Assembly: GCA_026261815.1 (NCBI GenBank)
Contig: JAMPIT010000697.1
Coordinates: 62,001-126,000, forward strand
Direction of reading: 5' to 3'
Origin: Monarcha castaneiventris obscurior
Lineage: Eukaryota > Chordata > Aves > Passeriformes > Monarchidae
DNA length: 64,000 nt
Part shown: one piece after another, positions 3,526 through 48,565 of the stretch
Numbering within the stretch: the stretch's first letter is position 1
Layout of the letters: every line of letters begins with the position of its first letter
Notes under the pieces: generated by a model
Databases searched by the model: none
What the model was told of the DNA's origin: nothing
Seen by the model: the letters and a program-made list of their open reading frames with translations, nothing else
Translations under genes and position numbers: made by a program

Positions 3526-3555
3526 ACTGCTGGCCAATTTCTGCAAATCACTTTC

Positions 3556-9671: not shown

Positions 9672-9716
9672 CCACAGGTTTTCTGGACAAGCTTCATTAC
9701 AACAACTCAGCCAACC

Positions 9717-13660: not shown

Positions 13661-14640
13661 CTCTGGCTGCAGGTCAAAGCAGCTGCAGTTCCTGGAGGCA
13701 TCTCCTAAAGCTGGAACACCCCAATGCCTACAGATTCTGTGAGTACAACTCTCTGAGTGTTCCTGGTTTAGAGGCAGAGGAGAATGTGTTCAGAGCTTCA
13801 GCTCACTCCCAAAATATTTCCATGACAAGGATAATTTTAAAGTTAAGGAAATTCCTGAAATTGTGTTTTCAATTTCCTACTCTTGGGCAATAGGAGGGAT
13901 AAATTATTTTTAAATTATTAATTTTGATAAATGCCTGAGACATCAGAACTGTTCCTTTGAGTCATCACTATGTCTGCAGGAGTTTCCTAATGTGCTTTCT
14001 GCCACTCCTCTGCCCATGGACAGCACCAGCATCACCTTTGCTGGACCCATCAGGCTCAGGCTGAGCTGTCCTTTCTCCCACCTGCAAACAGAACCTGCCC
14101 CCAGCCACTGCCCTGCAAACAGGAGGTTTCTGTAGGGCCAAGGAGAGTGCACAGAGATTTGGGGTCAGTGAGTGCTGGCAGGGAGAGATCAGGCACAGGG
14201 AAACACCTCCAGGGAGAAAATCTCCAGGAAGCAGAGAGAAGATCATGCAATGAGAGAAAACAAAACTCAGAAATGTTGTGTCAGGGAGAGTTTAGAGATC
14301 TCCACAGGATCCCCTCCAGTGCAGCCCCCTTGGGCTTGTCTCCCTGAGATGGGAGCTTTTCTCCAGGACACAAACCTGTCCTGGAGCATCTTTGTGTTAT
14401 CTGAAAGACCCACAGGGAAAGGCAGAGATGTTATGACAGAGAAATGCTGTATGGATGGTGAAATGAGCCACATGAGTCCTTGGCTACAAATGTGGTGTCA
14501 GACTGTGGTGGATCCATCTGATCTCAGCAGTACCTGGTGGTTTTTAGGGAAAACATGCAAAGGTGATCACTTTTTACCTGAGAAAGGTTAAAGCCCAGAG
14601 AAACTGTGAAAAGGTCAGAATGACAAACCACCTATCCTAC
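13661..14640. other. Intergenic DNA upstream of the second OR, no gene seen
   Basis: Moderate-GC unique sequence. The short reading frames here have no domain I recognise. It is not shared with the region upstream of the other ORs, so the OR exon and the module keep their relation although the DNA between them differs. Confidence 0.5.
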
Positions 14641-14699
14641 CTCTCTGCTCCTCACTTTGCCTCAGAGAACTCCCTCTGTTCTCTCTGAGGGCAGCAGAA

Positions 14700-15345
14700 A
14701 TGCTGAGGGTGAAACATAGGGTTTTATTTTAGACACTTAAAAGTAGAAATTTTAGATAAATTTAGTTTTGTCGAAATCAACTAGAATAAAAAGATGTAGA
14801 ACTCAGCTGGAAAGGAATTAATGATGAAGTAGGATAGGCTTTGATTGTTTGGTATTTATTCAGCTGTGTTTAGAATGGACAATTAATAATCTTAGAAAAA
14901 GAAATTCAAAGGAGAGTCTAGACAGTTACAAATTCTACCCAGATGCAACCTATTCAAAAGCAATGGAAGAGAGCACGGGAGTTTTCCAAGGTCAAATGTA
15001 TTGTCAAAAACCAGAGAAGCAACAAGGTCAAAGTGAAGAAGACAAGTATTACTTCCTCAAAAGCAACCCTCAGACCCATTTTATGACCACCCACCCAATT
15101 CTATTGCAAGAATTGTGCATGCTTAATGACTTTTTGCTAATTTCCATATGAAGCGGGGAATGGGAGGTGCTTATGCTATGAATACATATCTGTATTTCAA
15201 ATATGCATTATTGCTATAGATAAATAAGTTCTGTGTTGCATTGTGATTCCAGAGCTGTATATTTGGGAGCTATCCCTGCAGCTCTCCAGCACTGAAATAA
15301 ACATACACTTTCTAACCTTAACAAGTTAGAGAGTCTTTGTCTGTC
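14700..15345 (+). mobile_element. Possible LTR or retroelement remnant, AT-rich
   Basis: AT-rich DNA ends in a segment with AATAAA at about 15295 followed by a T/C-rich end (GTCTTTGTCTGTCTCGGG), resembling the R-U5 end of an LTR. A 100-residue frame at 14849-15151 has no recognisable domain. No terminal repeats or TSD were found, so this is tentative. Confidence 0.3.
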
Positions 15346-15587
15346 TCGGGTGGATATCGATATTAGATCTATATCCACGTTTTAATAATTCAAGGGCTGC
15401 TGACAACCCAGGAGAGATGGGTGGAGGTTTAAAAACAACCCCATAGAATGCTAAAACACTAAAGGCTGTGTTTCTGTGTTTCAGGCGAGGGTTTATAAGA
15501 AATAACTTTAATTTTGGTAACACAGATCTCCTCTGACTCTTTACTTTCTTTTTCTCTATGACAGAACCCAATGCCCAGACCCAGCAA

Positions 15588-16520
15588 ATGTCCAACAGCA
15601 GCTCCATCAGCCACTTCCTCCTGCTGGCATTGGCAGACACGCGGCAGCTGCAGCTCCTGCACTTCTGCCTCTTGCTGGGCATCTCCCTGGCTGCCCTCCT
15701 GGGCAACGGCCTCATCATCAGCGCCGTAGCCTGCGGCCAGCACCTGCACACCCCCATGTTCTTCTTCCTGCTCAACCTGGCCCTCACCGACCTGGGCTGC
15801 ATCTGCACCACTGTCCCCAAAGCCATGCACAATTCCCTCTGGGGCACCAGGCACATCTCCTACTCAGCATGTGCTACACAGCTCTTTTTTCTTGGATTTT
15901 TCATCTCAGCAGAGTTTTCCCTCCTGACCATCATGTGCTACGACCGCTACGTGTCCATCTGCAAACCCCTGCACTACAGGACCCTCCTGGGCAGCAGAGC
16001 TTGTGCCCACATGGCAGCAGCTGCCTGGGCCAGTGGCTTTCTCAATGCTCTGCTGCACACGGCCAATACATTTTCCGTGCCCCTGTGCCAGGGCAATGCC
16101 CTGGGCAAGTTCTTCTGTGAAGTGCCACAGATCCTCAAGCTCTCCTGCTCACACTCCTACTTCAGAAAAATTGGGATTTCTTTGGTTGCTGTCTGTTTAG
16201 CTTTTGGCTGTTTTATGTTCATGGTTTTTTCCTATGTGCAGATCTTCAGGGTCGTGCTGAGGATCCCCTCTGAGCAGGGACGGCACAAAGCCTTTTCCAC
16301 GTGCCTCCCTCACCTGGCCGTGGTCTCCTTGTTCCTCATCACCGCCATTTTTAACTACCTTAAGCCCCCCTCCATCTCCTTCCCATCCCTGGATCTGGCC
16401 CTGTCAGTTCTGTATTCGGTGGTGCCTCCAGCCCTGAACCCCCTCATCTACAGCCTGAGGAACCAGGAGCTCAAGGCTGAAGTGTGGACACTGATGACTG
16501 GATGGTTTCTGAAATACTAA
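15588..16520 (+). CDS. Olfactory receptor family 14-like (intact, 310 aa)
   Basis: An intact class A GPCR of the OR14-type, bird-expanded group; it should signal through the olfactory G protein in sensory neurons. Landmarks: N-glycosylation site N3-S-S, GN at 39-40 (TM1), PMFFFL 56-61 (TM2), C95 for the TM3-loop disulfide, MCYDRYVSICKPLHY 116-130 (TM3 end), FCEVPQILKLSC 176-187 (second loop), SY at 215-216 (TM5), KAFSTCLPHL 234-243 (TM6), NPLIY 284-288 (TM7). At 310 residues the length is normal. An upstream ATG at 15558 lies inside the splice acceptor (TTTCTCTATGACAG, ending 15564), so I take the ATG at 15588, matching the paralogues. AATAAA lies at 16551. Family 14 is confident; the exact member is not assigned. 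Confidence 0.95.
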   Translation: MSNSSSISHFLLLALADTRQLQLLHFCLLLGISLAALLGNGLIISAVACGQHLHTPMFFFLLNLALTDLGCICTTVPKAMHNSLWGTRHISYSACATQLFFLGFFISAEFSLLTIMCYDRYVSICKPLHYRTLLGSRACAHMAAAAWASGFLNALLHTANTFSVPLCQGNALGKFFCEVPQILKLSCSHSYFRKIGISLVAVCLAFGCFMFMVFSYVQIFRVVLRIPSEQGRHKAFSTCLPHLAVVSLFLITAIFNYLKPPSISFPSLDLALSVLYSVVPPALNPLIYSLRNQELKAEVWTLMTGWFLKY

Positions 16521-18035
16521 ACTGGTTGCCAATTTCTGCAAATCACTTGTAATAAAACTCACATTTGATAGTTCTTGTTGGTTTACTTCTCGGGTTATTT
16601 TCTCTCTTTTTAGTTATTTAACATTGTCCACAAAAGAAGGCCATTACTCCTTCCATTTCTCATTTTGTTTCTCTCCACCTTGCCTGTGGCCCCAGACTGT
16701 GTCAGTGATGAGCTGTGCTCTCGGTGCCTTTAAACAAACTAAAGGATCTCCCAGCAAAGTTTCCAGCAGAGATGCCCCTTTAGTTCCCCTCTCTGGAGCT
16801 GCAGCAGCAATGTCTGTGTGCAGAGCTGGGGGCAGATCAGGGCTGGCACAGCAGCTGTGCCCAGGAGCAGCAGCCCTTGGTGTTGCCAGTGCTGCTCCCG
16901 TGGCACTGCCCCGCTGCCCTCCTGGCCCTCGTGTTGCTGCAGGGCCTGAGTGCTCTCGGGCTGGCTCCCAGCCCTGGGCTGGCAGTGCCGGGGCTGCAGC
17001 AGGGCCAGGCCATGGGCACTGCTGGGGCAGCGCTGACGCCTCAGGGCAGGGCCTGGGGGCTCGAGGCTCCTTGCCCAGGCTCTCTCAAGAACACGCCCAG
17101 GCCAGTGCTGAGCAGAGAAAAGCCCCGTGAGCAGCCCCAGGGTGGCCGTGGGCAGGGTGGGGGCAAACAGCATGGCTGGTGCTCTGCAAGGTCCCTGGGG
17201 GAGCCGGGAAGGAGCAGCAGAGCAGGGGCTGATCCATCCCCCCTGCGCTGGACAGCCCAGGGCAGCGTCCCAGAGCGGCCTCATGCAGCTGCCAGCAACA
17301 TCCCCCCTGTGCAGCCCTGGCCTCTCCCCAGCTCAGAGAGGGGCTGCATCCTTGCAGGCAGAGACACGGCAGCACTGCCTCAGGAGCCCCTGTTTGCATT
17401 GCACAGCCCAGGCCTCAGCACCCCCACGCTGCTGCTGTGGGGAGATGAAGCTGAGTGAGCACAAATGCCATCAGCCCCTGGGGCCAGCAAGGGCTGCGGG
17501 ACGGCAGGGAAACCACTCAGCTTGCTCGTGGCCTCTGAAGTCAGCCAGAAAGTTTGTTCCATGAGCTGGGAGTTTGCTGTCCCACTGCAGACGTTGTTGC
17601 TCAGAGCCGGGGCTGCCTGGCAGCCACCCCCAAAGAGCCCTGAGCATTTCCTTTGCTTCCCCTTTGCTTTCTTTCCTCTTTCCTGCTCCACATTTCTTCC
17701 TCTTGCCCATCCCTGTCCCCTCCCCTGCAAACAGCCCATCCCTGCTTGCCCTTTCCTCTCTGGCCCCACTCCCCATTTCAGTTCCTGCCTTGGCACCATG
17801 GGAACGTCCCTTGGGGAGCAGGATCATCCCAAAAGTGCTCCAGGAATTGTCTGCAGGGCCCTGCAGTGCCTCGTGCTGTTCCCTTGCCAGAGGCACCACA
17901 GGCCAGGGGGGCACATCTGGGCTGCTGTGTCTGGGTGTGGGGCTCCCTGTTGTGGGCCAGGGAGGAGGAGCTGGAGAGGCTCTGCAGGACTGACAGGAGG
18001 GGCTTTGGGGCCTGTGTGGAGAAGCTGAGGGCCAG
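16521..18035 (+). repeat. OR downstream module, duplicated at 62486-64000
   Basis: This aligns colinearly with 62486-64000 at a constant offset of 45965, starting right after the OR stop codon. It is GC-rich, with overlapping open frames on both strands but no recognisable domain, so I treat it as non-coding. The copy after the first OR (3525 onward) keeps only about 90 bases before changing to CR1 sequence. Confidence 0.85.
16551..16556 (+). terminator. Poly(A) signal of the second OR
   Basis: AATAAA lies 31 bases after the stop, at the same place as in the other plus-strand copies. Confidence 0.65.
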
Positions 18036-18104
18036 GGGCTGCTGGACCTTCTGAAGAGGAGGCCCAGGGCTCATCCTGCAGCTGCTTCAAGGGTGGGTTC
18101 AGAG

Positions 18105-18640
18105 AATCCCAGAACCAACCAGGTTGGAAAAGATCTTGGCGATCATCAAGTCCAACCTGTGCCCTAACACCTCCTTGTGTCCCCTGAGCCTCCTCTTCTC
18201 CAGGATAAACAACCCCAGCTCTCCCAGCTGCTCCTTACAGCACTTGTGTCCCAGATCCCTCACCAGCCTTGTTGCCCTTCTCTGGACATGCTCCAGCCCC
18301 TCAATGTCCTTCCTAAATTGGGTAGCCCAGAACTGGGACACAGCACTCAAGGTGCGGCCTCACCAGTGCTGAGTCCAGGGGAAGAATCCCTGCCCTGGTC
18401 CTGCTGGCCACACCATTCCTGATCCAGGCCAGGTGCCATTGGCCTTCTTGGCCACGTGGGCACACTGCTGGCTCATGTCCAGCCTGCTGTCCATCAGTGC
18501 CCCCAGGTCCCTTTCTGCCTGGCTGCTGTCCAGCCACTCTGTCCCCAGCCTGTAGCGCTGCAGGGGTTGTTGTGGCCAAAGTGCAGGACCTGGCACTTGG
18601 TCTTGTTGAACCTCACATTGTTGCATTTGGCCCAAATTTT
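18105..18640 (-). mobile_element. CR1 LINE 3' end (ORF2 C-terminus and 3' UTR), minus strand
   Basis: The minus strand encodes the end of CR1 ORF2: [20 protein letters not shown], then [17 protein letters not shown]. It continues to the CR1 3' UTR with the family's GTTGGACTTGATGATC and TTTTCCAACC stretch near 18120-18150. This is the typical 5'-truncated bird LINE. The frame is interrupted, so it cannot move itself. Confidence 0.85.
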
Positions 18641-18697
18641 CATTGGATTTCAGAGGTCTTTTCCAACCTGGATGTTTCTGTGATTCTGTGATGGCTG
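18640..18697 (+). mobile_element. CR1 extreme 3' end, plus strand
   Basis: AGAGGTCTTTTCCAACCTGG followed by TTTCTGTGATTCTGTGAT is the CR1 3' terminus with its short octamer-like repeats, on the plus strand. It lies directly against a minus-strand CR1, giving a head-to-head arrangement. Confidence 0.7.
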
Positions 18698-19440
18698 TGA
18701 CACTGCAGGGCCCTGGGAAAGCAAGGGGCCATTGTGACACTGTGGGGCCTTGTTGAACCCAGGGGCCATTTTGACAGTGCAGAGCCAAGGACACCCTTGT
18801 GAGATTCCAGGGCCCAATGGAACCAAGGGGACATTGTTACACTGCAGGGACTCATGGCACTAAGGAAACAATTTGGACACTGTGGTGCCCCATGGAAACA
18901 AGGGGCCATTGGGACACTGCAGGATCTTGTGTAACCAGGGCTCCATTGTGACACTGTGCCACCAAGGAGTCCATTGTAACACCGTGGGGCCTCATGGAAT
19001 CAAGAAGACCCTTGTGACACTGAGTGGCCTCGTGTAGCCATGGGGCCATCACGATACTGCAGGGCCCCATGGAAGCAAGGAGTTCAGCGTTACTCTGTGG
19101 GGCCTCACGGAACCACGGAGACCATGGTGACCCTGCAGGACCTCGTATAACCAAGGGGCCGTTGTTACACTGCAGGGACTCATGGAATGAAGGAAACAAT
19201 TTTGACACCGTGGTGCCCCACGGCACCAAGAGGCCATGGTGACATTTTGGAACCAAGGAGACCATTGCTGCACTGTGAGACCTCATGGAACCAAGGATCC
19301 ATTGTGACACTGCAGGGCCCAGGGAACCAAAGGGCCATTGTGACACTGGGGGGCCCAAGGAATCGAGGGACATTGTGACACTACGGAGCCTCCTGGAATC
19401 ACCGAGATCATTGTGACACTCCATGGACTCATGGAACCAA
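18697..19440 (+). repeat. 37-bp satellite (plus orientation)
   Basis: About 20 diverged units contain CATGGAACCAAGGGGCCATT and GTGACACTGCAGGG. Spacing between GCCATTGTGACA cores is near 37 bp. The same family is at 46140-46345, 48112-48565 and 53870-54710 (opposite orientation), and at 50460-51850 and 57255-57525 (this orientation). Confidence 0.85.
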
Positions 19441-24556: not shown

Positions 24557-25600
24557 AATGTCTTGGTTTTAAAGAACAGATGTCTGCCCAGGAAGGCGGG
24601 AACTTTCCTGGACTGGAAAGATGACCCCCTCATTCCAAATGATCACTTTGTGATACCAGGGGCTCCCAGGCAAAAATTTGGGAAAAGGAATGTTACAAAA
24701 ATATGATAATTTCAGATATTAAACCAAATAAAAACAGTTTATTTAACAATTAAAGAAACCAGAACCAAAAAAACCTGAAAAAATCGGATAAAAATTGAAA
24801 CCCGGGAACCTCTGATTAAAGACGCTTTTCAGCTGGTTTGGCTATCAAAAAACCCAGGCAAAGCTTTTTTCTCGGCGCAGAGTTGCTTAAAAAGGCAGTA
24901 AAAGTTGGAAAATGGCCTGGTCTCACTGCGCCGAGGCTCTGTCTCTGGCTAGTTCCGGCAAGAAAAGAGAAAGGGTTTTTGTTGCCTGGCTATCCCAAGC
25001 TGCCCTCAGCGAAGGATGCCGGCCCTGGATGGCCTGGACACCTCGGCAGGCCTCGGTGCTGTAGGCAAGGCAAGGCTGGTTCCCGCAGGGGGAGGGCGGC
25101 TCCACGTGAGGAGAAGCACGGCGCGAAGAAGAGGCAAGGAGGCAAAGGGCTGTGAGAGGGGGTCTCCCCATGAACTCCTTTATTAAGGGAAGGGTCAGAG
25201 ATCCGGGATAGGAGCAGGATCGGAGGAGAAATCCCGAGGGGGGAATGGGGTGCACAGCCTTATAAGGGGGGCAAACATGGGAGGGGCGCCGGATAGGGAA
25301 CCAATAGAACACTAGGCTGAGGGAGGAGACAATATCTGAGGGCCAACAGTTTTTTAAAGGGGGGTCTACAGAACACATCCATCAAGGACTGACCAACCAC
25401 ACGACGCCTTTGGGAGAACCTTCTAGAAGAGGGGGCGGGCATTAGACCTCTGTGCCGCCCATGGAGTCCTCCTCCCAGGAGGAGTCTCCGTCCTCTGAGG
25501 CGGAGTCAGAGGAGGTGTCTGGGAGATTGACAGCGGCCACTGTTGGGGCCCGCCCCTCCACAAGTTTTAGGCTTGGGCTTGAGATATAGGGTCGAGTCTC
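24557..25600 (-). mobile_element. Minus-strand LTR sequence, possibly two LTRs
   Basis: TGTCTTGGTTTTAAAG at 24557 is the reverse complement of the ...CCAAGACA end seen in the LTRs ending at 27097, 29496 and 57144. On the minus strand an AATAAA lies about 185 bases before this end, as in those LTRs. Further up, a second promoter-like set appears on the minus strand: CTATTGG near 25307, TTATAAGG near 25262 and AATAAA near 25180. This suggests another LTR, or a longer one. The outer boundary is not resolved. Confidence 0.45.
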
Positions 25601-26560: not shown

Positions 26561-26659
26561 CGAGCTCACGCCTCTGGCGATATCCCCCAAGATGTGGGAG
26601 GTCCGTGGGCGACAGTGACAATTCCCAGCACAAATGACCGTGAGCCACCCCCAGAGACA

Positions 26660-26709
26660 GGGCTGGGGCCGATGGGATTTGGTTTTGGATCCACTGGGAT
26701 TTTGGGTTG
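26660..26709 (+). repeat. Left part of the ~24-bp GGATCTGATGGGATTT minisatellite
   Basis: Units like GATGGGATTTGGTTTTGGATC stop at GGTTG (26705-26709), where a solo LTR is inserted. The array resumes at 27098 with the same GGTTG. Confidence 0.8.
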
Positions 26710-27097
26710 TGTCTTAGGCTACAATGTAAGATATAACCAAAAATATGTATTCTGTCACCATCTGTTGAAACCTGGTGGGGCAGGGTTTTTTATGTCTTCC
26801 ATGACACATCCCTGAAAACTGCCTCCGGAGGGACATCTTCTGTTAATGGGCCATCCAGCCTCACTGCATGAGGGTGTCAGGTCGTATCCTGACTGTCGGG
26901 GTTAAGCCAGTGTCTGTGTATTATTGCCCTGTTATATATGTATCAGTAAAGAACTGTTATTCCTATTTCTCATATCTTTGCCTGAAAGCCCCTTAATTTC
27001 AAAATTAGAATAATTTGGAGGAAAGGGGGGTTACATTTTCCATGCCAGGGGAGGCTCCTGCCTTCCTTAGCAGACACCTGTCTTTCAAACCAAGACA
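26710..27097 (+). mobile_element. Solo LTR (388 bp) with 5-bp TSD GGTTG
   Basis: It starts TGTCTTAGG and ends CCAAGACA, with GGTTG directly before (26705-26709) and after (27098-27102). The last ~190 bp closely match the 3' end of the LTR at 56260-57144: GTAAAGAACTGTTATTCCTA, CATATCTTTGCCTGAAAGCC, ACACCTGTCTTTCAAACC. A 5-bp TSD and TG...CA ends show retroviral-type integration followed by LTR-LTR recombination. It is shorter than its relative, so it has an internal deletion or is a subfamily. Confidence 0.85.
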
Positions 27098-27262
27098 GGT
27101 TGGATCCAATGGCATTTGGACCTGAATCCATTGGGATTTGGGCTTGGATCTGTTGGGATTTGGAGTTGGATCCGATGGGATTTTGGGTTGGATCTGCTGG
27201 GATTTGGGGTTCCATCTGATGGGATTTTGTGGTGGATCTGATGGGATTTGGGGCAAAAAGGG
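27098..27262 (+). repeat. ~24-bp GGATCTGATGGGATTT minisatellite
   Basis: Six or seven units of about 24-26 bp such as TTGGATCTGCTGGGATTTGG. This is the right part of the array split by the solo LTR. It lies downstream of the 3' end of the CCDC81-like gene. Confidence 0.85.
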
Positions 27263-27409: not shown

Positions 27410-30400
27410 CTACTCCAGAGACACCTCCAGCACTGGCCAGAAGTTCTCATTGCTCGTCCTCATTGTCTTTGGCCTCGCAGGGCTGGGCGGGAGCTCCTTG
27501 GGATCGGGATCCGCAGGAATGCCAGAGCCGGAGCTGGACGCCGACAGCACCGCGATCACCGGCGTTTGGAAGCTCCAGGGATCCCAAGAACGGAACCACT
27601 TGGATTTCTCCTTCTTCTTCACCTCTTCCTCGTCTCCTCCTCTTCCTCCTCTGGAGCATGGATTTTTGGCCGTGCGCATCTGGCGCCGGCGCCTGGAGCG
27701 GTCCTGGCGCTGTCCGGCCTTTGGAATCTTGGGATGATCCCTGGAAGGATCCAACGAGAAAGGTCATCCCAAGCTGGGGGACACCAGATTGTCCCCAAGC
27801 CTTCAGCCTCACCTGTCCAGGGACTTCTCCGTCTTGTTCTTCCTCCCCTCAGTTTCCGACTTTTCCAACTTTCCTAACTTTTCCAACTTTTCCGACTTTT
27901 TCAGCTTTTCCTTCATCCCTTTGGATTCTGACTTTTCTGACATCTCCTTTTCCCCCAATTCAGTTTCCAACATTCCCGATTTCTCCTTCCTCCCCAATTC
28001 AGTTTCCAGCTTCTTTTTCCCCAGTTCAGTTTCTGACTTCCCAACTTTTCCTTCCTCCCCAGTTCAGTTTCCGACTTTCCTGATTTTTCCTTCCACTCGA
28101 ATTCAGTTTCCAACTTCTTTTTCCCCAGTTTGGTTTCCAACTTTCTGGACTTTTTCTCCTTCTTCGCCAGCTCTGTTTCCGACTTCCTCTCCATCCCCTT
28201 CCTCCCCTGGGTTTTCTGGTTTTCTGCAGTCTCTTCCTGAGGTTGTTCCTCTGCTCCTGGTATTCCAGAAGCTGCCTCTGGAACTGGAAAGGAGAGGCTA
28301 AGTCAGAGATGACATCACTTGTCCCATTTCTTCCCTTTTCCCCCACACTTCTCTGCTCTTTCCCCATTCCTTTGCTCTTCTCCCATTTCTTTCCCATTTT
28401 TTATCCATTCCTTTGCATTTTCCCTCATTTCTTTGCCTTTTCACTCATTCCCCCTTTGCCCTTCCCCCATTTTTTCCTGTTCTCCATTTTTCCTTGATTT
28501 TTCCCCAATTTCTTTCCTTTCTCCCATTTATTTGCTTTATTATCCCCAAAAATTCCCATGTTCCCCATTTTTTGCTGTTTTCCCTCTTTTCTTTGTTTTT
28601 TTCTCCAATTTCTTTCCTTTCCATCCACGTCTTTTCTTTATTATCCCAATTAAGTTCCATTTCCCTGTATTTTGCTATTTCCCCCCTTTCCTCGATTTTT
28701 CCCCATTTTTTCTGCTTTATGTCTTGGGGTGATTTTATGATGGTCCTTTATTCCCTAACTGTGTGCTTTGTGCCCAGAAAACGGCTGCTGCAGCTTTAGG
28801 CTGGGCCCAGGGATGGGGCCGGAGCCTTGGGCTCCTGCGCGGTTCGGTTCAATCTCTCTCCGGCGCGGTCGGCGGCTGCACGCATTGTTACTTCGCTGCC
28901 TTTGCTGGATTATTTTCACCAATTTAGGCAAGAAGCTTCTGGGTTTTTTGGGTTTTGTTTTCCCTTCCCCTGGCCTGGAGGCTTTTCACTGGCAAATCCT
29001 TTAGGTGGCTTTTTGGGATTTTTTCCCTTGAACTGTCTCAGTTCATTTCTTTCTTTGGCCTGAGGAGCCTGCGGAGGCGGCCCCGGCCGGTCCGAACCCC
29101 GAATAGACCGAGCCAGGGAAAGAAGGGACATTGAAGTCCACCAGCTTCGCCTGCTGCCAGGAGGAGACCCACGCCAGAAATCCAACAGGTCCCAGCTGCT
29201 GCGTGAACTCCTTCTTTTCTCCCCCCTTCCCAGGGACAAAGAAGGGCAGCCGCCACCTTTGCCTCTCGGCCATGTGGCGAGGTGGGGGTGGGTGTAAGGT
29301 TCAATTTTCTTTCTTTCTTTCCTGTGCTTTGTGGGAATCCTGCTTTGTTAATAAACAGTTCTACTTTTTTCTCACTTTCATCCCCTGGTATCCATTTCTC
29401 TCATTGGCAAAAGAAAAGGGAGTTACTGAAGCCCTTTCCCCCTAGACGCTCATTCCAGGGTGCTTCCTCCTGAAATTTGTCTCCAAAACCAAGACACTTT
29501 ATTATCCCCAAAAATACCCATTTCCCCCATTTTTTGCTATTTCCCCCCTTTCCTTGATTTTTTCCTGTATTTCTTTCCTGCATTCCTGTACTTTATCATC
29601 CCAATTAATTCCCATTTCCCCCTTTTTTTTTCCTATTCCACCATTTTGTTTTGGTTTTTCCCCATTTCTTTGCATTTTTCCCCATTATTTTTGAGTTTTA
29701 CCGTTTCTGTCTCTCCCAATTTTCCCGCCTTTCCCATCTTTCTTGATCCGTGGCCCCAATTTCCCCCTGGGACATGGGGTCTCCTTGTGAAGGTTCTGGA
29801 GGTTCTGGAGCAGCAGCACCCTTGGAAGCGTTGCCTGGACCATTTCCCTCTCGAACCTGGGCGGGAAACACCGGGATCACCCCGGAATCACCCTGGAATC
29901 ACCATGGTTTTCCCCAAATCCATGACATTTCCCCCTCAATTCACCACATTTTCCCTAATCCACCTTGTTTTTTCCCCCAAATCCACCATGTTCTCCCCAA
30001 ATCCACCTTTTTTTTCCCAAATCCACCTTATTTTACACATATCCACCACCATTTTCCACAAATCCACCATGTTTTTCTCAAATCCCCCGTTATCCCCAAA
30101 TCCATCACGTTTTCTGCAAATCCACCTTGTTTTCCCCCAAATCCAACACATTTTCCTTTGTATACTTTTTTTTCCCCAAATCTACTTTGTTTTTCCCAAA
30201 TCCACCACATTTTCCCAAATCCACCATATGTTCCTTAATCCATTTGTTATTTTCTAAAATCCACCACGTTCCCCCAAATCCACCCCATTTCCTCAAATCC
30301 ACCACATTTTCCCAAAATCTACCACAGTTTTCCCAAGATCCACCATCCCCCAGACCCACCCAGTGCAGAATTCCAGGCCCCCTAAATCCAAGGCATCCTG

Positions 30401-33400
30401 GAGCGGGTTGGGTTGGACCCTGTTCCGGTCCCACCCCAGCGTCCCCCCATTCCCAGAGCCCCGGGATCGCCCCCGGACGCACTCGGGGAAGACGATGACG
30501 GAGCCAGACGAGGTCAGGGCAGCCACAGAGACCCCCCGGGGCACCACCATGTCCAGGAGCTCCTGGATCTGCAACGGAAGAGAACAGGGATGAGACGTTC
30601 TCCATGGGGATGAGGAGCTCAACATTAGAAGGCCCCAAATATGGTGGGATCTTGTCATCATGGATGAGGAACTCAGCGTTGGAGGAGCCCCAAGATGGCC
30701 GGAGCTTCCTACCATGGATGAGGACCTCAATGATGGAAGACCCCAAAGATGAGGAACCCGGTGTTGAAGGAGCCCAAAGAGGACCCCAGAGATGGTGGGA
30801 CCTCCTTGAAATGGGTGAGGGCATGTTGGAGGAGCCCAGAGATGGTGGGATCTCCTCAATGTGGATGAGGAACTCAACACTGAAGGAGTCCAAAGATGGT
30901 GGGATCTCCTCCCCAAGGATGAGGAACTCAGTGTTGGAGGAGGCCAAAGAGGACTTTAAAGACATTGGGACTTTCTCCATGTGGATGAGGAAATGCTGGA
31001 GGATCCCAAAAATGGTGGGATCTCCTCAACATGGCCAAGGGACTTGAGGACCCCAAAGACGGTGGGACCTTCTCCCCATGGATGAGGGAATTTTAAAGGA
31101 CCACCCCACTCCCCTCCCTCAATCCCCTCAACCCCCTCACCTTGAAGACCCCCTTTTCCAGGTTCTCCTTCCCGGCCACCGCCCCCAGGAAGTCGTGGTA
31201 GAACCTCATCCGGACCTTGCGCCGCTCCACCAGCAGGACTCCAATGTCCCTCAGGACCAGGGCCACGTCCTGACCTGTCCCCAAGCACCGCGACAGGAGG
31301 GACGTGGTGGCCTGGAGGGCGCCCTCCACCCTGCACCGGGGCCGTCCCAGTGCCGCTGCCACCACAAACGTCCGGAGGGGATCCAGGTTCCCTGGGAGGA
31401 CATGGAAGGTGGGGGCATTTGGGTATCCTCAGGGGTTTGGGGTTTTCTGGTGGGGTTTTGGGGGTTTCTCAAGGTTTTATGGGGTCTCCTTGTGGCTATT
31501 GGGGTCCTCTCATGGTTTTTTGACATTTCTCAGGGTGTTTTGGAGACTTCTGTGGGTGTTTTGGGGTCTTCTTGTGGGGTTGTTTTGGTCTCCTTGTGGT
31601 TTTTGAGGTCTTCTTGTGGCTTTATGGGATTTTCTCACGCTTTTTTGGGGTCTCCTCATGTTTTTTGGGGATGTCCACATGATTTTTTTTTAGTTTTTTG
31701 GGCATTTCCTTAGGGGTTTTGGAGTCTTCTCATGTTTGGGGGGGTTTTCTTGAGGGTTTTTGAGGTTTTCTCATGTTTCTATTGGGTCTTCTGGGTTTTG
31801 GGGTCTTCTCATGGTTTTAGGGGGTATCCCTGTAATTTTTGGGGTCTCCTCATTGATTTATGGGGTCCTCATTGATTTATGTGCTTTTGTGGGGTGTTCT
31901 CATGATTTCTGGGAGGGTCTTGTGTTTTGGGGGGTCTCTTCATGGGTGTAAGGGTCACCTGATGGTGTTTTGGGGTCTCCTTGTTATTTTTCGGGTCTTC
32001 TTATGGTTTCTGAGGGTTTCCTTGTGGTTTTCAGGGTCTTCTTTTTTTTTTTTTTTTGTGGTCTTACTGTGTATTTTTTGGGTCTCCTCGTGATTTTTGG
32101 GGTCTCCTAATGGTTTTTTGGGGTGTCCTTGTGAGTTCTGGGGTCTTCTTGTCATTTTTATGGTCTCTACAAGATTTTTGAGGTTCCTCATGGGTTTTAG
32201 GCTCTTGTGATTTTTAGGGACTTCTCATGGGGATTTTGGGGTCTCCTCATGTTTTTTGGGTTCTCCTTGTGAATTTGGTGGTCTCCTTGTGGGTTTTTCC
32301 GGCTCTTCTCATGAGTTTTAGGGGATCTTCTCATTTTTTGGAGGTGTTCTTCTGGGTTTTGAGGTCTTCTTGTGTTCTTTTGCGGCTTCTCATGGTTTTA
32401 TAGGGTATCCCTATATTTTGGGGTGTCTCCTCATTGTTTTATGGGATCTCCTTTTGGTTTTGAGGTCTTCTTACAGTTTTTTCTGGTCTCATGGTTTTTT
32501 GGGTCTTGCCACATGCTTTTTCAAGGTCTTGTAATGTATTTTGGGGGTCTCCTGATGGTCGTTTGGGGTCTTCTCATGGTTTTATGAAGTCTCTGTGTGC
32601 TTTTTGGGGGTCTTCTTGGGGTTTTTGGGGGTCTCCTTATGATTTTTGTGTGCTTCTCATGGCTTTTTGGGTTCTTCTTATGGGTTTTTTGGGGGATTTT
32701 CTCATGGGTTTATGGGGTCTTCTTACAGTTTTTTGGGTTCTTGCTATGTGCTTTTTTGGGGTCTTGTAATATATTTTTGGGTCTCCTCACAGTTTTTTGG
32801 GGGCTCCTTGTGATTTTTGGGTTCTTCTCACAGGGCTTTTTAGGGTGTCCTCGTGGGTTTTGGGGGCTCCTCATGCTTTTTTTTGGATCTCTTCTTGTTT
32901 TTTTGGGAGATTTCCTTGTGATTTTTGGGATCGCCTTGTGTTTTTTTGGGGTCTTCTTGTGTTTTTTTGGGATCTCCTCATGGATTTTTAGGGTCTCCTC
33001 CCATTTTTTTGGTTTCTTCTCACACCTTTCAAGTCCCCATTTTCCACCCCTTCCCTCAACCCTCCCCCTCCATCCATGTCCACCTCGGAATGCCCATGGT
33101 CCTACCGGGCTGGAATTCCCAGTCATCCATCAAATTGTGGCTCTGGACCAAATTCCTGGCCAGGCAAAAAATCGGCCTCTGTGTTGTCACCTCCATGTTC
33201 CCAACCTGCGCCCGCCAGGGCACCACATCCAGGGTGCCGAGGGTCGGGATCCGCACCCCCTGCAACCAGAATTTTTGGGAATTTGTGACCTGCTTCCCCC
33301 CAGAAGTGGAATTTTGGGATTTTTAAGTGGAAATTTGGGATTTTGGGGTCCGCACTCCATGGAGCTGGAATTTTGGGATCTTGAGATCTGCACCCTCTGC

Positions 33401-33743
33401 AAGCAGAATTTGGGGATTTTGGGATCTGCTCCCCCAAGAAATGGAATTTCAGGATTTTGGAAGGAGCCAGAGGTGACCTTGACCCCCAGGAGGGGACACG
33501 GCAGGGGAATTGAGGTGACCTTGTTTTGCAGCAGGAGCTGGTCCAGGACGAAGTCGGCCACCACATCCCAAATTTCCTTCCACTCTGGGAATTGAGGGAA
33601 ACTGAGTCAGGATCCTGACAGATCCTGACATTCCCATGGGTCCAGGTAGTGCTGGTACCTTTGGGGGTGGTGGCTGAAACCACCTCTGTCCTCCCCCAGA
33701 GCTCCACCTTGGTCCTCCTGGCAGTGAGAGGGCGAGAGCTCAT
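27410..33743 (-). CDS. CCDC81: CCDC81-like gene, eight coding exons, one frameshift in a Lys/Glu repeat
   Basis: A gene related to CCDC81 (tandem bacterial-HU-like domains, then a charged C-terminus; CCDC81 is linked to centrosomes and cilia). Exons, minus strand: 33743-33659, 33584-33520, 33259-33106, 31391-31141, 30568-30483, 29856-29702, 28283-27813, 27740-27410. All introns are GT...AG and the phases (1,0,1,0,2,1,2) fit. HU-like domain 1: EIWDVVADFVLDQLLLQNK, GVRIPTLGTLDVV, QRPIFCLARNLVQSHN. Domain 2: VALVLRDIGVLLVERRKVRM, RFYHDFLGAVAGKENL, ending SSGSVIVFPE. Exon 7 encodes a ~12-residue Lys/Glu repeat (KLETELGKKEK type). Exon 8 ends with TAG at 27410. Coding length is 1598 nt, one short of a multiple of three: one A appears missing near 28041. 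The protein would be ~532 aa; human CCDC81 is about 650. The start ATG at 33743 is the least certain part. Confidence 0.8.
27813..28283 (-). repeat. Coding ~36-bp repeat in exon 7 of the CCDC81-like gene
   Basis: On the minus strand GGAAACTGAATTGGGG and GGAAGGAAAAGT alternate about every 36 bp, giving the Lys/Glu repeat. It reads in one frame to about 28041 and in the next frame from there to the donor (GACAG|GTGAGG at 27813/27812). The repeat probably arose by expansion and is a likely place for slippage or assembly error. Confidence 0.75.
28310..28714. repeat. Pyrimidine-rich repeat in intron 6, left of the solo LTR
   Basis: Diverged units such as TTTCCCCATTTCTTTGC and TTATCCCAATTAAGTTCC occupy the intron. 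The array continues after the LTR at 29497-29700. The Phe/Pro- or Lys-rich frames here are by-products. Confidence 0.8.
28720..29496 (+). mobile_element. Solo LTR (777 bp) with 5-bp TSD CTTTA, in intron 6 of the CCDC81-like gene
   Basis: It begins TGTCTTGGGG and ends CCAAGACA. CTTTA precedes it (28715-28719) and follows it (29497-29501). AATAAA near 29348 precedes the end by about 145 bp, as in related LTRs. A CpG-rich centre (28840-28890) fits a promoter. It is antisense to the host gene. The perfect TSD and matching ends mean that an ERV inserted here and was reduced by LTR-LTR recombination. Confidence 0.88.
29930..30350. repeat. ~24-bp minisatellite in intron 5 of the CCDC81-like gene
   Basis: Units like CCCAAATCCACCATGTTTTC, about 17 copies, fill most of the intron between exons 5 and 6. 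Confidence 0.85.
30600..31100. repeat. ~55-bp minisatellite in intron 4 of the CCDC81-like gene
   Basis: Units contain GGATGAGGAACTCAGTGTTG, GGAGGAGCCCCAAAGATGG and TGGGATCTCCTCC. Two clear starts at 30863 and 30918 give a 55-bp period; others are diverged. Confidence 0.8.
31425..33010. repeat. T/G-rich ~30-bp minisatellite in intron 3 of the CCDC81-like gene
   Basis: About 1.6 kb of diverged units like TTTTTGGGGTCTTCTCATGG fills almost the whole intron between exons 3 and 4. One strand is nearly devoid of A and rich in GGGG and TTTT runs. Long Phe/Gly/Trp-rich frames here (for example 32597-33595) are artefacts. Confidence 0.9.
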
Positions 33744-33899
33744 TCTGCACTCTCTCGGGATTTGGGATCGGGATGTGGGATCGGGGTGTGGGGTCTGGGA
33801 TGTCCCACCACCAGACTAGCTCCTGTTGTGTCCCAGGACACTCGGTGACGCTGCTGGTGGCACTGTGACTTTGGTGGGGCCTCTGTGATGTCGTGGTGA

Positions 33900-34090
33900 C
33901 ACCGCAGGGACGGGGGGGGGGGATACGGGGTTGGGGCAGGGAGGAGGGATGGAACATGGAATGGGGGACATGGAATGGGGGACATGGGGGATATGGGGGA
34001 CATGGAATGGGGGACATGGAGGGCGGACTTGGAGGATGTTGGATGGGGCACTCAGAATGGGGGACAAGGGAAACATGGGGGACACAGTCT
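33900..34090 (+). repeat. GGGGGACATGGAAT minisatellite
   Basis: Units of about 9-18 bp such as ATGGAATGGGGGACATGG, upstream of the CCDC81-like start codon (gene on the minus strand). The flanking 33744-33900 shows no further coding exon. Confidence 0.85.
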
Positions 34091-41406: not shown

Positions 41407-42363
41407 CTATGCAGAAGAAAACAGGCAATTTGTTGCGTCTGAGAAGCATCCAGTCATCAAATTCCTCAGGGCATCCTTGAGCTCCTGGTTCCTCAGGCTG
41501 TAGATGAGGGGGTTCAGGGCTGGAGGCACCACCGAGTACAGAACTGACAGGGTCAGATCCACGGATGGAGAGGAGATGGAGGGGGGCTTCAGGTAGGAAA
41601 AAAAGGCAGTGCTGAGGAACAGGGAGACGACGGTCAGGTGAGGGAGGCACGTGGAAAAGGCTTTGTGCCGTCCCTGCTCAGAGGGGATCCTCAGCACAAC
41701 CCTGAAGATCTGCACATAGGAGAAAATCATGAACACAAAACAGCCAAAGGCTAAACAGGCACTAACAGCAGGAAGCCCCAGTTCCCTGAAGTAGGAGTGT
41801 GAGCAGGAGAGCTTGAAGATGTGTGGGATTTCACAGAAGAACTGGCCCGGGGCATTGCCCTGGCACAGGGGCAGGGAAAATGTATTGGCCGTGTGCAGCA
41901 GAGCATTGAGAAAGGCACAGGCCCAGGCAGCTGCTGCCATGTGGGCACAAGCTCTGCTGCCCAGGAGGGTCCCGTAGTGCAGGGGTTTGCAGATGGACAC
42001 GTAGCGGTCGTAGCACATGATGGTCAGGAGGAAATACTCTGCTGAGATGAAGAACAGAAAGAAAAAGAGCTGAGCAGCACATCCTGAGTAGGAGATGTGC
42101 CTGGTGTCCCAGAGGGAATTGTGCATGGCTTTGGGGACAGTGGTGCAGATGCAGCCCAGGTCGGTGAGGGCCAGGTTGAGCAGGAAGAAGAACATGGGGG
42201 TGTGCAGGTGCTGGCCGCAGGCTACGGCGCTGATGATGAGGCCGTTGCCCAGGAGGGCAGCCAGGGAGATGCCCAGCAAGAGGCAGAAGTGCAGGAGCTG
42301 CAGCTGCCGCGTGTCTGCCAATGCCAGCAGGAGGAAGTGGCTGATGGAGCTGCTGTTGGACAT
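41407..42363 (-). CDS. Olfactory receptor family 14-like (intact, 318 aa)
   Basis: An intact OR14-type odorant receptor on the minus strand. The MSNSSS start at 42363 matches the paralogues; the longer frame to 42534 runs through a splice acceptor (TTCCTCCTCAGCAG, near 42390) and is probably intron. Landmarks: GN in TM1, PMFFFL, LFFFLFFISAEYFLL in TM3, MCYDRYVSICKPLHY, FCEIPHIFKLSC, ELGLPAVSACLAFGC in TM5, KAFSTCLPHL, STAFFSYLKPP in TM6, NPLIYSLRN. The tail differs from the others after LRNQELK (DALRNLMTGCFSDATNCLFS...) and is 8 residues longer. Its upstream module lies at 44290-45290, also minus strand. TM3, TM5 and TM6 differ most, suggesting a different odorant range. Confidence 0.95.
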   Translation of the reverse strand: MSNSSSISHFLLLALADTRQLQLLHFCLLLGISLAALLGNGLIISAVACGQHLHTPMFFFLLNLALTDLGCICTTVPKAMHNSLWDTRHISYSGCAAQLFFFLFFISAEYFLLTIMCYDRYVSICKPLHYGTLLGSRACAHMAAAAWACAFLNALLHTANTFSLPLCQGNAPGQFFCEIPHIFKLSCSHSYFRELGLPAVSACLAFGCFVFMIFSYVQIFRVVLRIPSEQGRHKAFSTCLPHLTVVSLFLSTAFFSYLKPPSISSPSVDLTLSVLYSVVPPALNPLIYSLRNQELKDALRNLMTGCFSDATNCLFSSA

Positions 42364-42539
42364 TTGCTGCCTCAGGAAATGGTGATCTGCTGAGGAGGAA
42401 AAGGCAGGACAGAGTTGGGCCGGACATAGAGCAAAATACATTGCATATCTCATAGCAATTCTACATTCAGGGTCTCTCTGTTTAGGAGCACTTCTCTGCA
42501 TTCCCCTCACCTGGGCTCTGGGTTTTGCAGGCATTGAGA

Positions 42540-44285
42540 GCAGGGACTCACAAATGGGCTCCAGAGGATTCCTTCTTCTTGTGCAGTAAAAAGCAACTCA
42601 GAAGGCTGCGTGATCTCCAATTAAATGGACTTGTGATACACCAAGAAGCTTTTCAGCTTTGCTGTTTGTAATTTGCCCATCTGAAGGACTAAGCTGAGGG
42701 AATTCCTTGTATTTGTTCATCCAGTTGCACCTGCCACAGTTAGGAGTGGTTGTGGGTGTTTGAAACCCCTGACATTTCTGACGCACTGCGGGTGAAATCT
42801 TGCGGGTCTCAGAGGCAGAGGGATGGTCTCTCAGTGCAGGGACAGGAGAGCTGCTCTGCCCATCAGGGCTGTTCTCAGCTGCCCCTTGCCGGCAGCTTGG
42901 AGCTGAAGGAGAGGCAGCCAGAGGAGTTCCCCTACAGAGCAACAGGGCACTGCTGACAGCAGAGGGGTCTGGGTTCAGAGAGCAGATTGACAGACTCCTC
43001 GGCCTTTCTCAGGGTGCCTCATTAGGATCTCAGCTGTCTCCTGCCAGGCTGCTGCACAGAGGGATCATTGCAGCTGCCCAGGTGCAGCTGCCCAGCAGCA
43101 TTTCCCTGGCCCTGCCACTGAGGCGTCTCCTCCGTGGGGATCCCAGGCAGCCCAGAGACACTATGGCAGAGCTGTGCCCTTCTGGAGGGCACCCTGCAGC
43201 CCTGCAGGACACCCGGGGAATCAGCTGAATGGCCCCTGAGGGGACTTGGGCACTCTGCTCCCACAGACACACCTCCACAGCAGGATCCAAAGGCTCCCGG
43301 CCTGGACAGGCACCTGCCACCCCCAAACCCTTGCACTGGCTCAGAAAACCCGGTGGTGGGAACAAGGACAGCACAGGCAACAGGGGATGGCAGTGAAATG
43401 CCACAGTGCTCCTGCCAGGGGAGGAGGGACACCCAGAGACTGATGGAAATCAGGGGCTTGTCCTTCCTCCCCTGGGCTTTGGCTGCTGCAGGGCAATGCC
43501 CACCCGAGCCCCCGTGGGATGAGGACAGGGGCTCTGCTTAGGCTGGGAAAGGAGCCCGGGGAGGAGCTGCTGGGGGAAGGTGTCTGAGCTACAGGGACAG
43601 CAGGGAGGTGCCCATGTCCCCCTGGCCAGCATTTGTGGCAGCAGCTCCCTGTCCCTCCCTGCCCATGTCTCTGCTGTGGGGGGCTGCTGCTGCCAGCAGC
43701 GTCTCCCTGTGCCCAGCTGCGCTCCCTGCCAGGGCTCACAGAGCCCATCCCCAGTCCACGGCCCCGGGGCAGCTCTGCCTGTGCAGGGACTGTCCTGTCC
43801 TGTGCCTCTGAGGGGGCAGCAGGGAAGCCCCGCTCTGGAGCTTGCTCTGCTCCACACCAGGACACCCAGGAGAGCCACCCTGACAGCTCCTATCAGTGCT
43901 GGCATTGGCAGGTGTCAGAGCCACTTCCAGGAACTCACCTGTGTTGCTCTGCAGCCAGAGACCCACTGTGTCCAAGGGCTGTGGAGATTTCTCCACTGAT
44001 GGGGTCTCTCCTGTCCTCCCACCCCCGGCTGCATTTAAACCTCTTTCTCACTTCTCCTGCCTGCCCTTGCTGCCTGCAGGTACTGACCTGCTGTGCCCTA
44101 CAGCCACTTCCTCTGCACCAGAGGAACTGGGAGAGTCCTTCCAAAAGATCATGGAAAACGTGGGATGTGCCAACATTAGGAGATCCCTCCAGGAAGGAAG
44201 TATAACTTTTCTACAGCCAGAAAATTATTCATTCAAACACTGTGAAGATTTCTCCCCTAGCGAGCGCTCAGTCACCCTCCCAGCC
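42540..44285. other. DNA between the third OR and its upstream module, no gene seen
   Basis: GC-rich sequence without a recognised domain. It is not homologous to the 2-kb interval shared by the first and fourth ORs. Confidence 0.5.
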
Positions 44286-46140: not shown

Positions 46141-46345
46141 GTTCCATGTTCCCTTGGTTCCATGGGGCCCCACAGTGTCACAATGGTCTCCACAATTCCA
46201 TGGGGCCTTGCAATGCCACAATGCTCTCCAAGGACCCACGGTGCCCCGCAGTGTCACAACAGCCCCTTCATTTCACAGGGCCCCGAGGTGTCATTATGGT
46301 CTCCATGGTTCCACAAGGTCCTCACCGTGTCCCCATGGTCTCCAT
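46140..46345 (-). repeat. 37-bp satellite block between 189-bp units
   Basis: Five or six units in the TTCCATGGGGCCCCACAGTG orientation, entered through GACCTGTTCCATGTTCCCTT, a junction also present at 48108, 53860 and (inverted) 57525. Confidence 0.8.
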
Positions 46346-48110
46346 AGGAAGGAAACAACCGAGCCCCAGGGCTTCAGGGGCAGATGAGGGGCAGTCACCA
46401 GAGGCCAAGGCCAGCCAGACTAGACAGTACTGGCAGATTTTGTCTGGGAGCGACCCTTGGATATAGGGAATTTTAGAGGCGGAATCCCAATTTCGGACAG
46501 GGACTCCTGTAGGAGAAGGACGGTTCTTTTCCATAGGAAGGAAAGCACAGAACACCGGTGTTTCAGGGGCAGACGAAAGGCGGCCATCAGAGGCCAAGGC
46601 CAGACAGACCCCTCTGCCCTGGTAGCTTTTGTCTGAAAGCAACCCTTGGATATAGGGAATTTTGGAGGTGGAATCCCAACTTCAGCCATTTCTGTGTTTA
46701 TAGGAATTACGGTTCTTTTCCATAGGAAGGAAAGCACAGAGCCCCAGTGCTTCAAAGGCAGATGAGAGATGGCTCCTGGGAAGCCACGCCAGCCAGACCT
46801 GTTTGTCCTGGCAGCTTTTGTCACAGAGGAATCCTTGGATATACAGAATTTGAGAGGCAGAATCTCAATTTTGACCATGGATACCTTGACAAGAAGGACG
46901 GTTCTTTTCCATTGGAAGGAAAGCACCGAGCCCCAGTGTTTCAAAAGGAGCTGAGAGGCAGCCCCCAAGAGGCCAAGGACAGCCAGACCTGTCTGTCCTG
47001 GCAGCTTTTACTTGGGACCACTCCTTGGATATATAGAATTTTGGAAATGGAATCCAAATTTTGGTCATGGGCGCCTGGATGACATGGATGGTTTGTTTCC
47101 ATCAGAAAGAAAAGAAGAAGGCCAAGTGTCCTGGCAGCTTTCACTTGGGAGAAATCCTTGGATGTGCAGAGTGTTGCAATTGGAATCCCAATTTTGGCCA
47201 TGGGTTCATGTTCGAGATGGGTGGTTTTTTCCCATAGGAAATGTAAGTGCAAAGTCCATGTCTTTTGGAAGAAGATGAGCAGTGGCCACCCACAGGCCAA
47301 GCCAGCCAGACCTGTCTCTTCTGGCACCTCCATCTGGGGGCAATCCTTGGATATAGGGAATTCTGGAGGTGGAATCTCAGTTTTGGCCATGGGTGCCTGG
47401 ACAGGAAGAAGAGTTCTTTTCATTAGGAAGGAAAGCATAGAACCCCAGTGTTTCAAAGGCAGATGAGAGCCAGCCCTCAGGAAGCCAAGGCCAGCCAGAC
47501 TTGTCAGTCCTGGCAGCTTTTGTCTGGGAGCTATCCTTGGATACAGGGAATTCTGCAGGCAGATGCCCAATTTTGGCCTTGGGCACCTGGACGTGAAAGG
47601 TGCTTTTTTCCCATAGGAAAGAAAAGCACATGGTCCCAGTGTTCCCAAGGCAGATTAGAGGCGACCCCCAGGTGGCCAAGCCAGCCAGATCTGTCTGTCC
47701 TGGCAGACTTCATCTGGGAACAAAGCTTGGATAGATGGAAATTATAAGTAGGAATCCCAATTTTGGGTGTGGGCACCTGGACGTGAAAGGTGCTTTTTTC
47801 CCATAGGAAAGAAAAGCACATGGTCCCAGTGTTTCAAAGGCAGATGAGAGGTGGCCCCCAGGTGGCCAAGCCAGCCAGATCTGTCAGTCCTGGCAGATTT
47901 CATCTGGGAACAATCTTTGCATATGAGGAAATTTGGAAGATGAATCCCAATTTTGGCTATGGGCACCTGGAGGAGAAGGATGGTTCTTTTCCATAGGAAG
48001 GAAAGCACAGAGCCCCAGTGCTGCAGGGGCAGATGAGCAGTGGCCCTCTACATGCCAAGGTCAGACAGACCTGTCAGGTGGCCCCCGGGAGGCCAAGCCA
48101 GCCAGAGCTG
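46345..48110 (+). repeat. 189-bp satellite, main block
   Basis: About nine units. The GGAAGGAAAGCAC landmark lies at 46347, 46536, 46725 and 46914, exactly 189 bp apart, and later at 47426, 47616, 47806 and 47996 with 190-bp spacing; one shortened unit lies near 47104-47237. Because 189 is divisible by three, both strands hold frames of 100-235 residues across units; they show no known domain. Confidence 0.9.
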
Positions 48111-48111
48111 T

Positions 48112-48565
48112 TCCATGTTCCCTTGGTTTCACGGGGCCCCACAGGGTCACAATGGCCCCTTGCTTCCATGAGGCCTTGCAATGTCCCAATGGCCCCTTGG
48201 TTCCACAAAGCCCTGAAGTGTCCCAATGGCCCCTTGGCTCCATGGGGCCCAACAGTGTCCCTGTGGCTCCTTGGTTCTATGGGCCCCACAGTTTGATCAC
48301 TGACCCTTGGTTCCACAGGGCCCCTGAGTTTCACCATGCTCTCCTTGATTCCACAAGGCAGCAGAGTGTCACAATGGTCTCTGTGGTTCCATGAGGTTCC
48401 ATAGTGTCCCCATGGTGTCCCTGGATCTGCAGTGTCACAGGGGCCCCTTGGTTCCATGAGTTTCTGTGCTGTCAACAACGGTTCCTTTGTTCCACCGAGG
48501 CCTTGATGTGTCACAGAGGCCCCTTGGTTCCATGAGGTTCCGCAGTGTCACCATGGTCGCTGTCA
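48112..48565 (-). repeat. 37-bp satellite (TTCCATGAGG orientation)
   Basis: About 12 units directly continue from the 189-bp satellite through the same junction sequence as at 46140. Confidence 0.85.

Follow-up and report, generated by a model that had tools for sequence, protein, structure and literature searches.

In Tetrahymena, the CCDC81 homologue IJ34 is reported to stabilise CFAP52 at the inner junction (PMC10105768), and CCDC81b has been put forward as a protein of the axonemal inner junction (PMC11961760). Two further systems concern the organization of bird genomes. Sequence stuttering was reported in 2026 for the dot chromosomes of the chicken and is said there to be unreported in other vertebrates; each intron contains imperfect tandem units of local origin, the medians for introns being 7-93% on dot chromosomes and near zero elsewhere, and stuttered intron lengths differ between chickens (PMC12954441). 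Chicken dot chromosome 29 also harbours 386 intact copies of the olfactory receptor (OR) OR29G within pericentromeric heterochromatin (PMC9974502). Here we describe a CCDC81-like gene of the songbird Monarcha castaneiventris obscurior, located in a stretch of 64,000 nucleotides (hereafter the window; positions 62001-126000 of contig C545, in an assembly of 1.077 Gb and 688 contigs) and read on the minus strand from 33743 down to 27410. We consider it fairly likely that a passerine CCDC81-like gene has been amplified together with OR14 receptor genes, and that its introns were filled by local tandem expansion of the stuttering kind. The kind of gene is in itself ordinary; the interest lies in its architecture, its co-amplification and a coding repeat that is kept in frame.

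The gene consists of eight exons on the minus strand (E1-E8, labelled by plus-strand coordinates of the window), which are real and can be joined as a first-pass annotation of the same DNA had proposed: all seven introns carry a GT donor and an AG acceptor, and the junction phases agree. E1 (33743-33659) opens with the ATG at 33743 and encodes the N-terminal residues ahead of HU domain 1, whose first helix (EWKEIWDVVADFVLDQLLLQNK) lies in E2 (33584-33520) and whose remainder lies in E3 (33259-33106). The core of HU domain 2 is encoded by E4 (31391-31141) and its end by E5 (30568-30483; ...VIVFPE). E6 (29856-29702) encodes FEREMVQ..PR.. and has a weak donor (ACG|GTAAAA), E7 (28283-27813) is a coding minisatellite rich in lysine and glutamate (K/E), and E8 (27740-27410) holds a conserved C-terminus (FQTPVIAVLSASSS...NFWPVLEVSLE) with the stop codon TAG at 27412-27410, in the frame used by the sister copies described below. 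Donor scores are highest for E7 (11.3) and E4 (11.2), intermediate for E3 (6.3) and just 3.2-4.9 for E1, E2, E5 and E6.

The assignment to the CCDC81 family, and the two HU-like domains that went with it in the first-pass annotation, are borne out by several searches. With E1-E6 and the start of E7 as query (345 residues), Pfam places PF14908 at residues 25-93 (E=7e-9, 36.1 bits) and, after it, PF18289 at residues 106-176 (E=1.2e-17, 64.2 bits), each against a curated cut-off of 26.1. The HU pair also resembles by sequence the CCDC81 chain of sea-urchin sperm (8snb_1K, E=1.6e-16), and bird homologues as well as 12 sister genes of the same structure agree with this identity. The CCDC81 HU domains are reportedly described in a paper on the HU superfamily by Burroughs et al. 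from 2017. A structure was predicted for the homologue P0004 only, with a mean predicted local distance difference test (pLDDT) score of 58 overall and of 80-94 in most blocks of both HU domains. Its fold matches 8snb_1K best, and strongly, followed by doublet chains of Tetrahymena, Trypanosoma and Leishmania whose chain names were not seen, and it matches bacterial HU/IHF weakly. That the exons are chance open reading frames is ruled out by the agreement of Pfam domains, homologues and sister genes.

A broad search of about 5.8 billion proteins, restricted to candidates of 190-604 aa of which the 7997 sharing most words were scored, returned 32 proteins, and every one with a named species comes from a bird; 30 of them are 39-56% identical to the query, and two pieces reach 77 and 85%. 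Many of these homologues begin alike (MSS..RRTK..W), 29 tblastn rows from the 32 begin in E3, and E8 matches the C-terminus of the bird CCDC81-like protein P0004 (residues 371-412, E=1e-4). Passerine names are absent from these 32 rows. A second search, with the 214-residue HU part as query and candidates of 118-375 aa, returned 45 proteins, among them eight passerine-named rows of 118-142 aa that are 82-90% identical and cover mostly exons 4 and 5. The eight names (Pteruthius, Polioptila, Leiothrix, Spizella, Malurus, Locustella, Quiscalus and Hirundo) are presumably all passerine; two were checked as Passeriformes. Four proteins (P0154, P0155, P0158 and P0159) continue across the E5|E6 junction as FPEF(E/K)REMVQ.P(I/L)PR, matching our prediction, P0153 covers E3|E4, and P0157 and P0164 read past E5 into the intron. 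The suspicion that such a gene is easily missed by automated annotation thus fits the database, where the passerine-named rows found are fragments only; the repeat-filled make-up of the gene may explain why.

These repeats occupy 49% of the gene as measured by Tandem Repeats Finder (TRF), against 11% in the remainder of the window; the figure for the gene is reached by 1.8% of overlapping 6334-bp stretches of the window. Across introns 1-7 the TRF cover is 0, 60, 86, 63, 75, 31 and 0%. Intron 2 (33519-33260) carries an array with a 38-bp period, intron 3 (33105-31392) one with a unit of about 21 bp, intron 4 (31140-30569) one of about 54 bp and intron 5 (30482-29857) one of about 20/41 bp, while intron 6 (29701-28284) holds a pyrimidine-rich array split by an insertion resembling a long terminal repeat (LTR). 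With this 777-bp insert set aside, arithmetic from the array and insert coordinates gives about 68% array for intron 6. A 13-bp array lies immediately upstream of the start codon (33755-33803), and a 14-bp array of the GGGGGACATGG type further upstream of the gene (33954-34020). The earlier description of introns 3-6 and of the DNA before the ATG as each largely filled by its own tandem repeat therefore holds for the arrays themselves, as does the period given for intron 4 (about 55 bp), but not for the periods of introns 3 (21 and not about 30 bp) and 5 (20/41 and not about 24 bp); it also lacked the intron 2 array and the insertion in intron 6. When the gene is compared with the window, 25 non-self rows are found, and the 24 listed each fall within a single intron or exon, so that the units seem to have arisen locally. 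An origin of the repeats from exons is not convincing: the best exon-into-intron match, between E6 and intron 3 (30.1 bits over 16-25 bp), compares with 26.5 bits for the best of 20 E6 shuffles, and this intron is not adjacent to E6.

The insertion in intron 6 (28720-29496) is solo-LTR-like, runs from TGTCTTGG to CCAAGACA and is flanked by the 5-bp repeat CTTTA. Shortly beyond the 3' end of the gene follows a second LTR-like stretch (about 26601-27098), parts of which recur at 56980-57144 and 24559-24691.

We searched the assembly with PF18289, which marked 18 places, 16 of them over the cut-off, all 23 candidates being scored; the 15 loci besides the window were fetched. The corresponding search with PF14908 gave no match from its seven candidates, as expected for a domain that is split over three exons. 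The fetched loci reveal that what had been presented as a single gene is one of 13 such genes, lying on 10 short contigs (21-370 kb). All 12 sister genes keep the eight exons, with E1-E6 and E8 identical in length; for E1 this amounts to 12 of 12 copies, or 11 distinct ones, the copies on C106 and C620 being identical. In the longest aligned rows the window gene and its copies are about 91-97% identical, with arrays of unequal size. Eight of the 12 sister copies (seven distinct) read through, encoding 537 (C65), 531 (C336), 529 (C476), 533 (C563) or, in C54, C106, C261b and C620, 532 aa, whereas four are broken by stop codons, C261c after 67, C99 after 195 and C545a and C261a after 385 residues. 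Three further loci, on the larger contigs C643, C568 and C30, hold divergent HU-CCDC81 paralogues with few tandem repeats and without a blastn match to the window gene, and the C568 paralogue resembles the CCDC81-like proteins of non-passerine birds. We did not find a multicopy passerine CCDC81 reported in the literature covered by our search, outside of which most subscription papers fall.

Comparison of the copies shows how variable the arrays are. The gene-wide array share is 42-51% over the 13 copies and 11% in the C568 paralogue. Intron 3 measures 1622-1723 bp in most copies and 2345-2346 bp in five. An LTR-like insert of 656 bp (TG...CA with a 6-bp flanking repeat, identified by eye) accounts for the excess in C336; C65, C545a and C563 have exactly the same intron 3 as C336, and from its length we infer that C476 carries the same insert. 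Intron 5 ranges from 605 to 740 bp and intron 4 from 571 to 616 bp, with alignment gaps of 104 bp in introns 3 and 5 and of 47 bp in intron 4, all inside array-bearing introns. This variation speaks against the idea that the minisatellites are functional, for instance in splicing or the timing of transcription, instead of being by-products. Such arrays do persist in intron 3 of a relative, whose protein P0029 includes a translated repeat of this sort next to exon 4; however, lengths vary by about 100 bp in intron 3 besides the inserted element and by 135 bp in intron 5, no kept length is seen, and we regard a function as very improbable. The length of intron 6 is 1410-1418 bp in all copies. 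The end of the 777-bp element at 29496 is exact, together with its flank, in all 13 copies (the other end in three), and because of this and of the constant intron length the insertion probably predates the amplification. One genome with 12 distinct copies thus offers the chance to measure the growth of arrays both in introns and in a coding exon.

Most of the copies also share a neighbour. The window itself contains four OR14-like reading frames, at 2545-3522 (plus strand; partly out of frame by eye), 15537-16517 (plus), 41410-42597 (minus) and 61526-62482 (plus). A protein search with the last of these gave 7999 matches, and those of ordinary length among the best 120 are 85-91% identical, together with a few much longer rows from pigeons, parrot, quail, stork and passerines. 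The ordinary-length matches we take to be passerine as far as we recognised their names. A DNA search of the same genome with one OR14 gave 42 rows from the best 40 of 395 candidates, which were scored. Placed by hand, an OR14 lies 9.97-10.73 kb upstream of exon 4 on the same strand in nine of the 13 gene places (C106 and C620, as well as C545 and C563, being counted apart); in C261b it is 16.8 kb away, and C261a, C476 and C54 have none among the matches listed. No OR14 was found inside the fetched loci of 9.9 kb. Since an OR14 stands close upstream in most places, the gene seems to travel in an OR14-CCDC81 amplicon. A CCDC81-type gene is thereby tied to an amplified olfactory-receptor region, and copy number, testis expression and drive-like amplification become testable.

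Some caution attaches to the number of copies. Over the 9.9 kb read, no difference separates C106 from C620; C545 and C563 agree fully in bases 1-4000 and 12800-18730 and then diverge inside intron 6, as one would expect if the gene is hard to assemble, which the first-pass annotation had foreseen. C65 and C336 have the same 5' half as these two, and all four contigs diverge inside intron 6, within the LTR-like element. Identical starts followed by divergence look like contigs that share a graph segment, that is, duplicated assembly paths, and some of the 13 genes may perhaps be assembly duplicates. Gene conversion between copies with shared 5' and different 3' halves is not claimed, because identical contig starts suggest a switching of assembly paths. 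Taken further, the same observations could mean that most of what looks like a family is an assembly artefact, with a single locus or a few loci emitted repeatedly as haplotigs or graph paths. Merging the shared contigs still leaves nine distinct 5' halves, C261 alone bears three copies and C545 two that are 77 kb apart, and the divergence and unequal arrays noted above point the same way; we therefore find a wholesale artefact rather improbable and retain a true multicopy family.

Exon 7 is where the window copy departs from its sisters. It opens with 98 bp, continues with units of 42, 27, 39, 38, 27, 39, 30, 9, 36, 9, 18 and 9 bp and closes with 50 bp; TRF arrays span 49% of it. It is thus a coding tandem repeat, as had been stated, but not a plain repeat of 36 bp. 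The K/E repeats appear only in the entry frame dictated by E6 and, past the 38-bp unit at 28077-28040, in the frame of E8. The other frames were rejected: the one that opens with FQRQLLEYQEQ runs for 85 residues before a stop, and two early stops interrupt the third. The 38-bp unit is the sole full unit not divisible by three, and through it reading leaves the frame needed by exon 8. The eight exons total 1598 nt, not a multiple of three, while the product of about 532 residues first proposed would need 1599; translation of the window copy ends after 388 residues, and among the sister copies it is C54, C261b and the identical pair C106/C620 that encode 532. This disrupting unit is unique to the window copy, all 12 others (11 distinct) being in frame. 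Their exon 7 measures 463-487 bp, with two at 376 bp, against 471 bp in the window, and in all 12 it leaves a remainder of 1 on division by three, which the frame demands and from which the window copy alone departs.

We infer that the window copy is a decaying, frameshifted member of the family, one of five broken among 12 distinct copies. The 38-bp unit could instead be a sequencing or assembly error in a copy that is intact and encodes 532 residues. The assembly is visibly troubled around these loci, the first six exons, every splice site and exon 8 are otherwise open, and difficult regions of bird genomes are documented to suffer from indel errors (PMC9516821). Against this, no such unit occurs in the 12 other copies, stop codons in four other distinct copies make decay common in the family, and the window copy has seven private non-synonymous changes in E1-E6 and E8. 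Intact copies have 0-5 of these and the other broken copies 0, 1, 6 and 9, low figures being too low where copies share a 5' half and cannot show private changes there. An error is on balance unlikely. A comparison with passerines in E4-E5 gave no signal of relaxed constraint in the window copy (it has three private changes in 112 sites; the 10 relatives compared have 0-8).

A further option is that the 388-residue product is made as a genuine short protein, composed of the two HU domains, the first half of the charged repeat and a new tail. Neither HU domain nor E6 is indeed truncated, two other distinct copies (C545a and C261a) also end early, at 385 and in exon 7, and the C-terminal part is under little constraint. 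The tail past the break, however, is an out-of-frame reading of the repeat, and exon 8 is matched in other birds. A stop codon with an exon junction downstream would also invite mRNA decay, and here the E7|E8 junction follows the stop in exon 7. A functional short form is in our view quite unlikely, more so than a sequencing error, and decay of the window copy is the reading we keep.

Constraint on the family was estimated from the seven intact distinct copies. In E2-E5 they show eight synonymous changes in 145 sites and six non-synonymous changes in 410, a ratio per site (pN/pS) of 0.27, with a Fisher p of 0.013 that is uncorrected, one of six tests and based on few changes. The ratio climbs to 0.50 (p 0.047) once the five broken copies join, and for E6 and E8 it is 0.81 (p 0.53). 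The pairwise dN/dS, the corresponding divergence ratio, is 0.64 over E1-E6 and E8 in the 12 distinct copies. Mean divergence is 0.9% in exon 4 and 1.0-2.9% in the other exons measured; among the introns it reaches 3.4% in the first two and 2.1% in the seventh. From these sequence comparisons it looks as if the HU part is kept and the tail is loose.

Altogether, we propose a bird-type CCDC81-like gene with two HU-fold domains, a K/E-rich linker encoded by repeats and a conserved C-terminal motif, which would have been co-amplified with OR14. Its introns may have been filled one by one, each with its own unit, through local tandem expansion. The arrays could be by-products of slippage or unequal exchange, in a region that is heterochromatic or recombines often, and would be tolerated and spliced out of the transcript; exon 7 would grow by the same process, with selection retaining only steps of three bases. 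The protein of intact copies may work like CCDC81, its HU pair docking on the doublet microtubules of cilia or sperm, at the inner junction, or on the centrosome, and its charged tail would serve as a flexible linker. That intact copies act at the centrosome or in the doublets of cilia or sperm we advance as a tentative suggestion, to which we give somewhat less than an even chance.

The rest of the window is rich in repeated DNA. Two direct duplications bear OR14 copies (1-3648/58959-62608, 95.7%; 15567-18035/61533-64000, 96.3%), and fragments of reading frames resembling endogenous-retrovirus gag/pol were recognised by eye at 8806-11095 and 55177-56121. At 46341-48077 the window has tandem arrays built of units of about 190 bp, with related copies near 53.4-53.8 and 57.4-58.2 kb. 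A 37-38 bp minisatellite of the GGAACCAAGGGGCCATTGTGACAC type is dispersed in both orientations (18696-19382, 46160-46259, 48120-48551, 50538-51586, 53870-54706 and 57274-57518). Rfam gave no match above gathering scores.

Among described proteins, the bird CCDC81-like proteins of Spheniscus, Mycteria, Gymnogyps and Gallus, which carry PF14908 and PF18289, come closest. The gene shares with them the two HU domains, the RRTK..W N-terminus and the FPEFE..PR junction, and with part of them the C-terminal motif TPVIAVLSA.SS, the ten best rows of the broad search being 50-56% identical. It differs from them in its tandemly repeated exon 7 and in its amplification with OR14 in this genome. With CCDC81, IJ34 and CCDC81b of the inner junction of axonemal doublets (PDB 8snb) the likeness is one of the HU pair, by sequence to the 8snb chain and by the predicted fold of the homologue P0004. 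OR29G of the chicken shares a large receptor set with near-identical copies, to be set beside the 395 first-look OR14 candidates with the best 40 scored; here, in contrast, a CCDC81-like gene would ride in the amplicon, and we treat the likeness as a parallel and not as proof of chromosomal place.

The intron pattern matches the sequence-stuttering type. As in the chicken (PMC12954441), every array-bearing intron has imperfect tandem units of its own, each some tens of bases long, and lengths vary. The median of the seven introns is 60% by TRF, while the chicken medians use a combined RepeatMasker and TRF measure. In contrast to the chicken, the gene here is passerine and multicopy, its length variation was seen between paralogues and not between individuals, the array structure extends to a coding exon, and exon-derived copies are not clearly found. 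We speculate, at about even confidence, that stuttering also shapes a multicopy passerine gene and its coding exon, where length variants would survive only in steps of three bases, and that the OR14-CCDC81 amplicon keeps yielding new lengths of an HU protein of cilium or sperm type as well as broken copies. This would extend to a songbird an intron-filling process that is said to be unreported outside the chicken.

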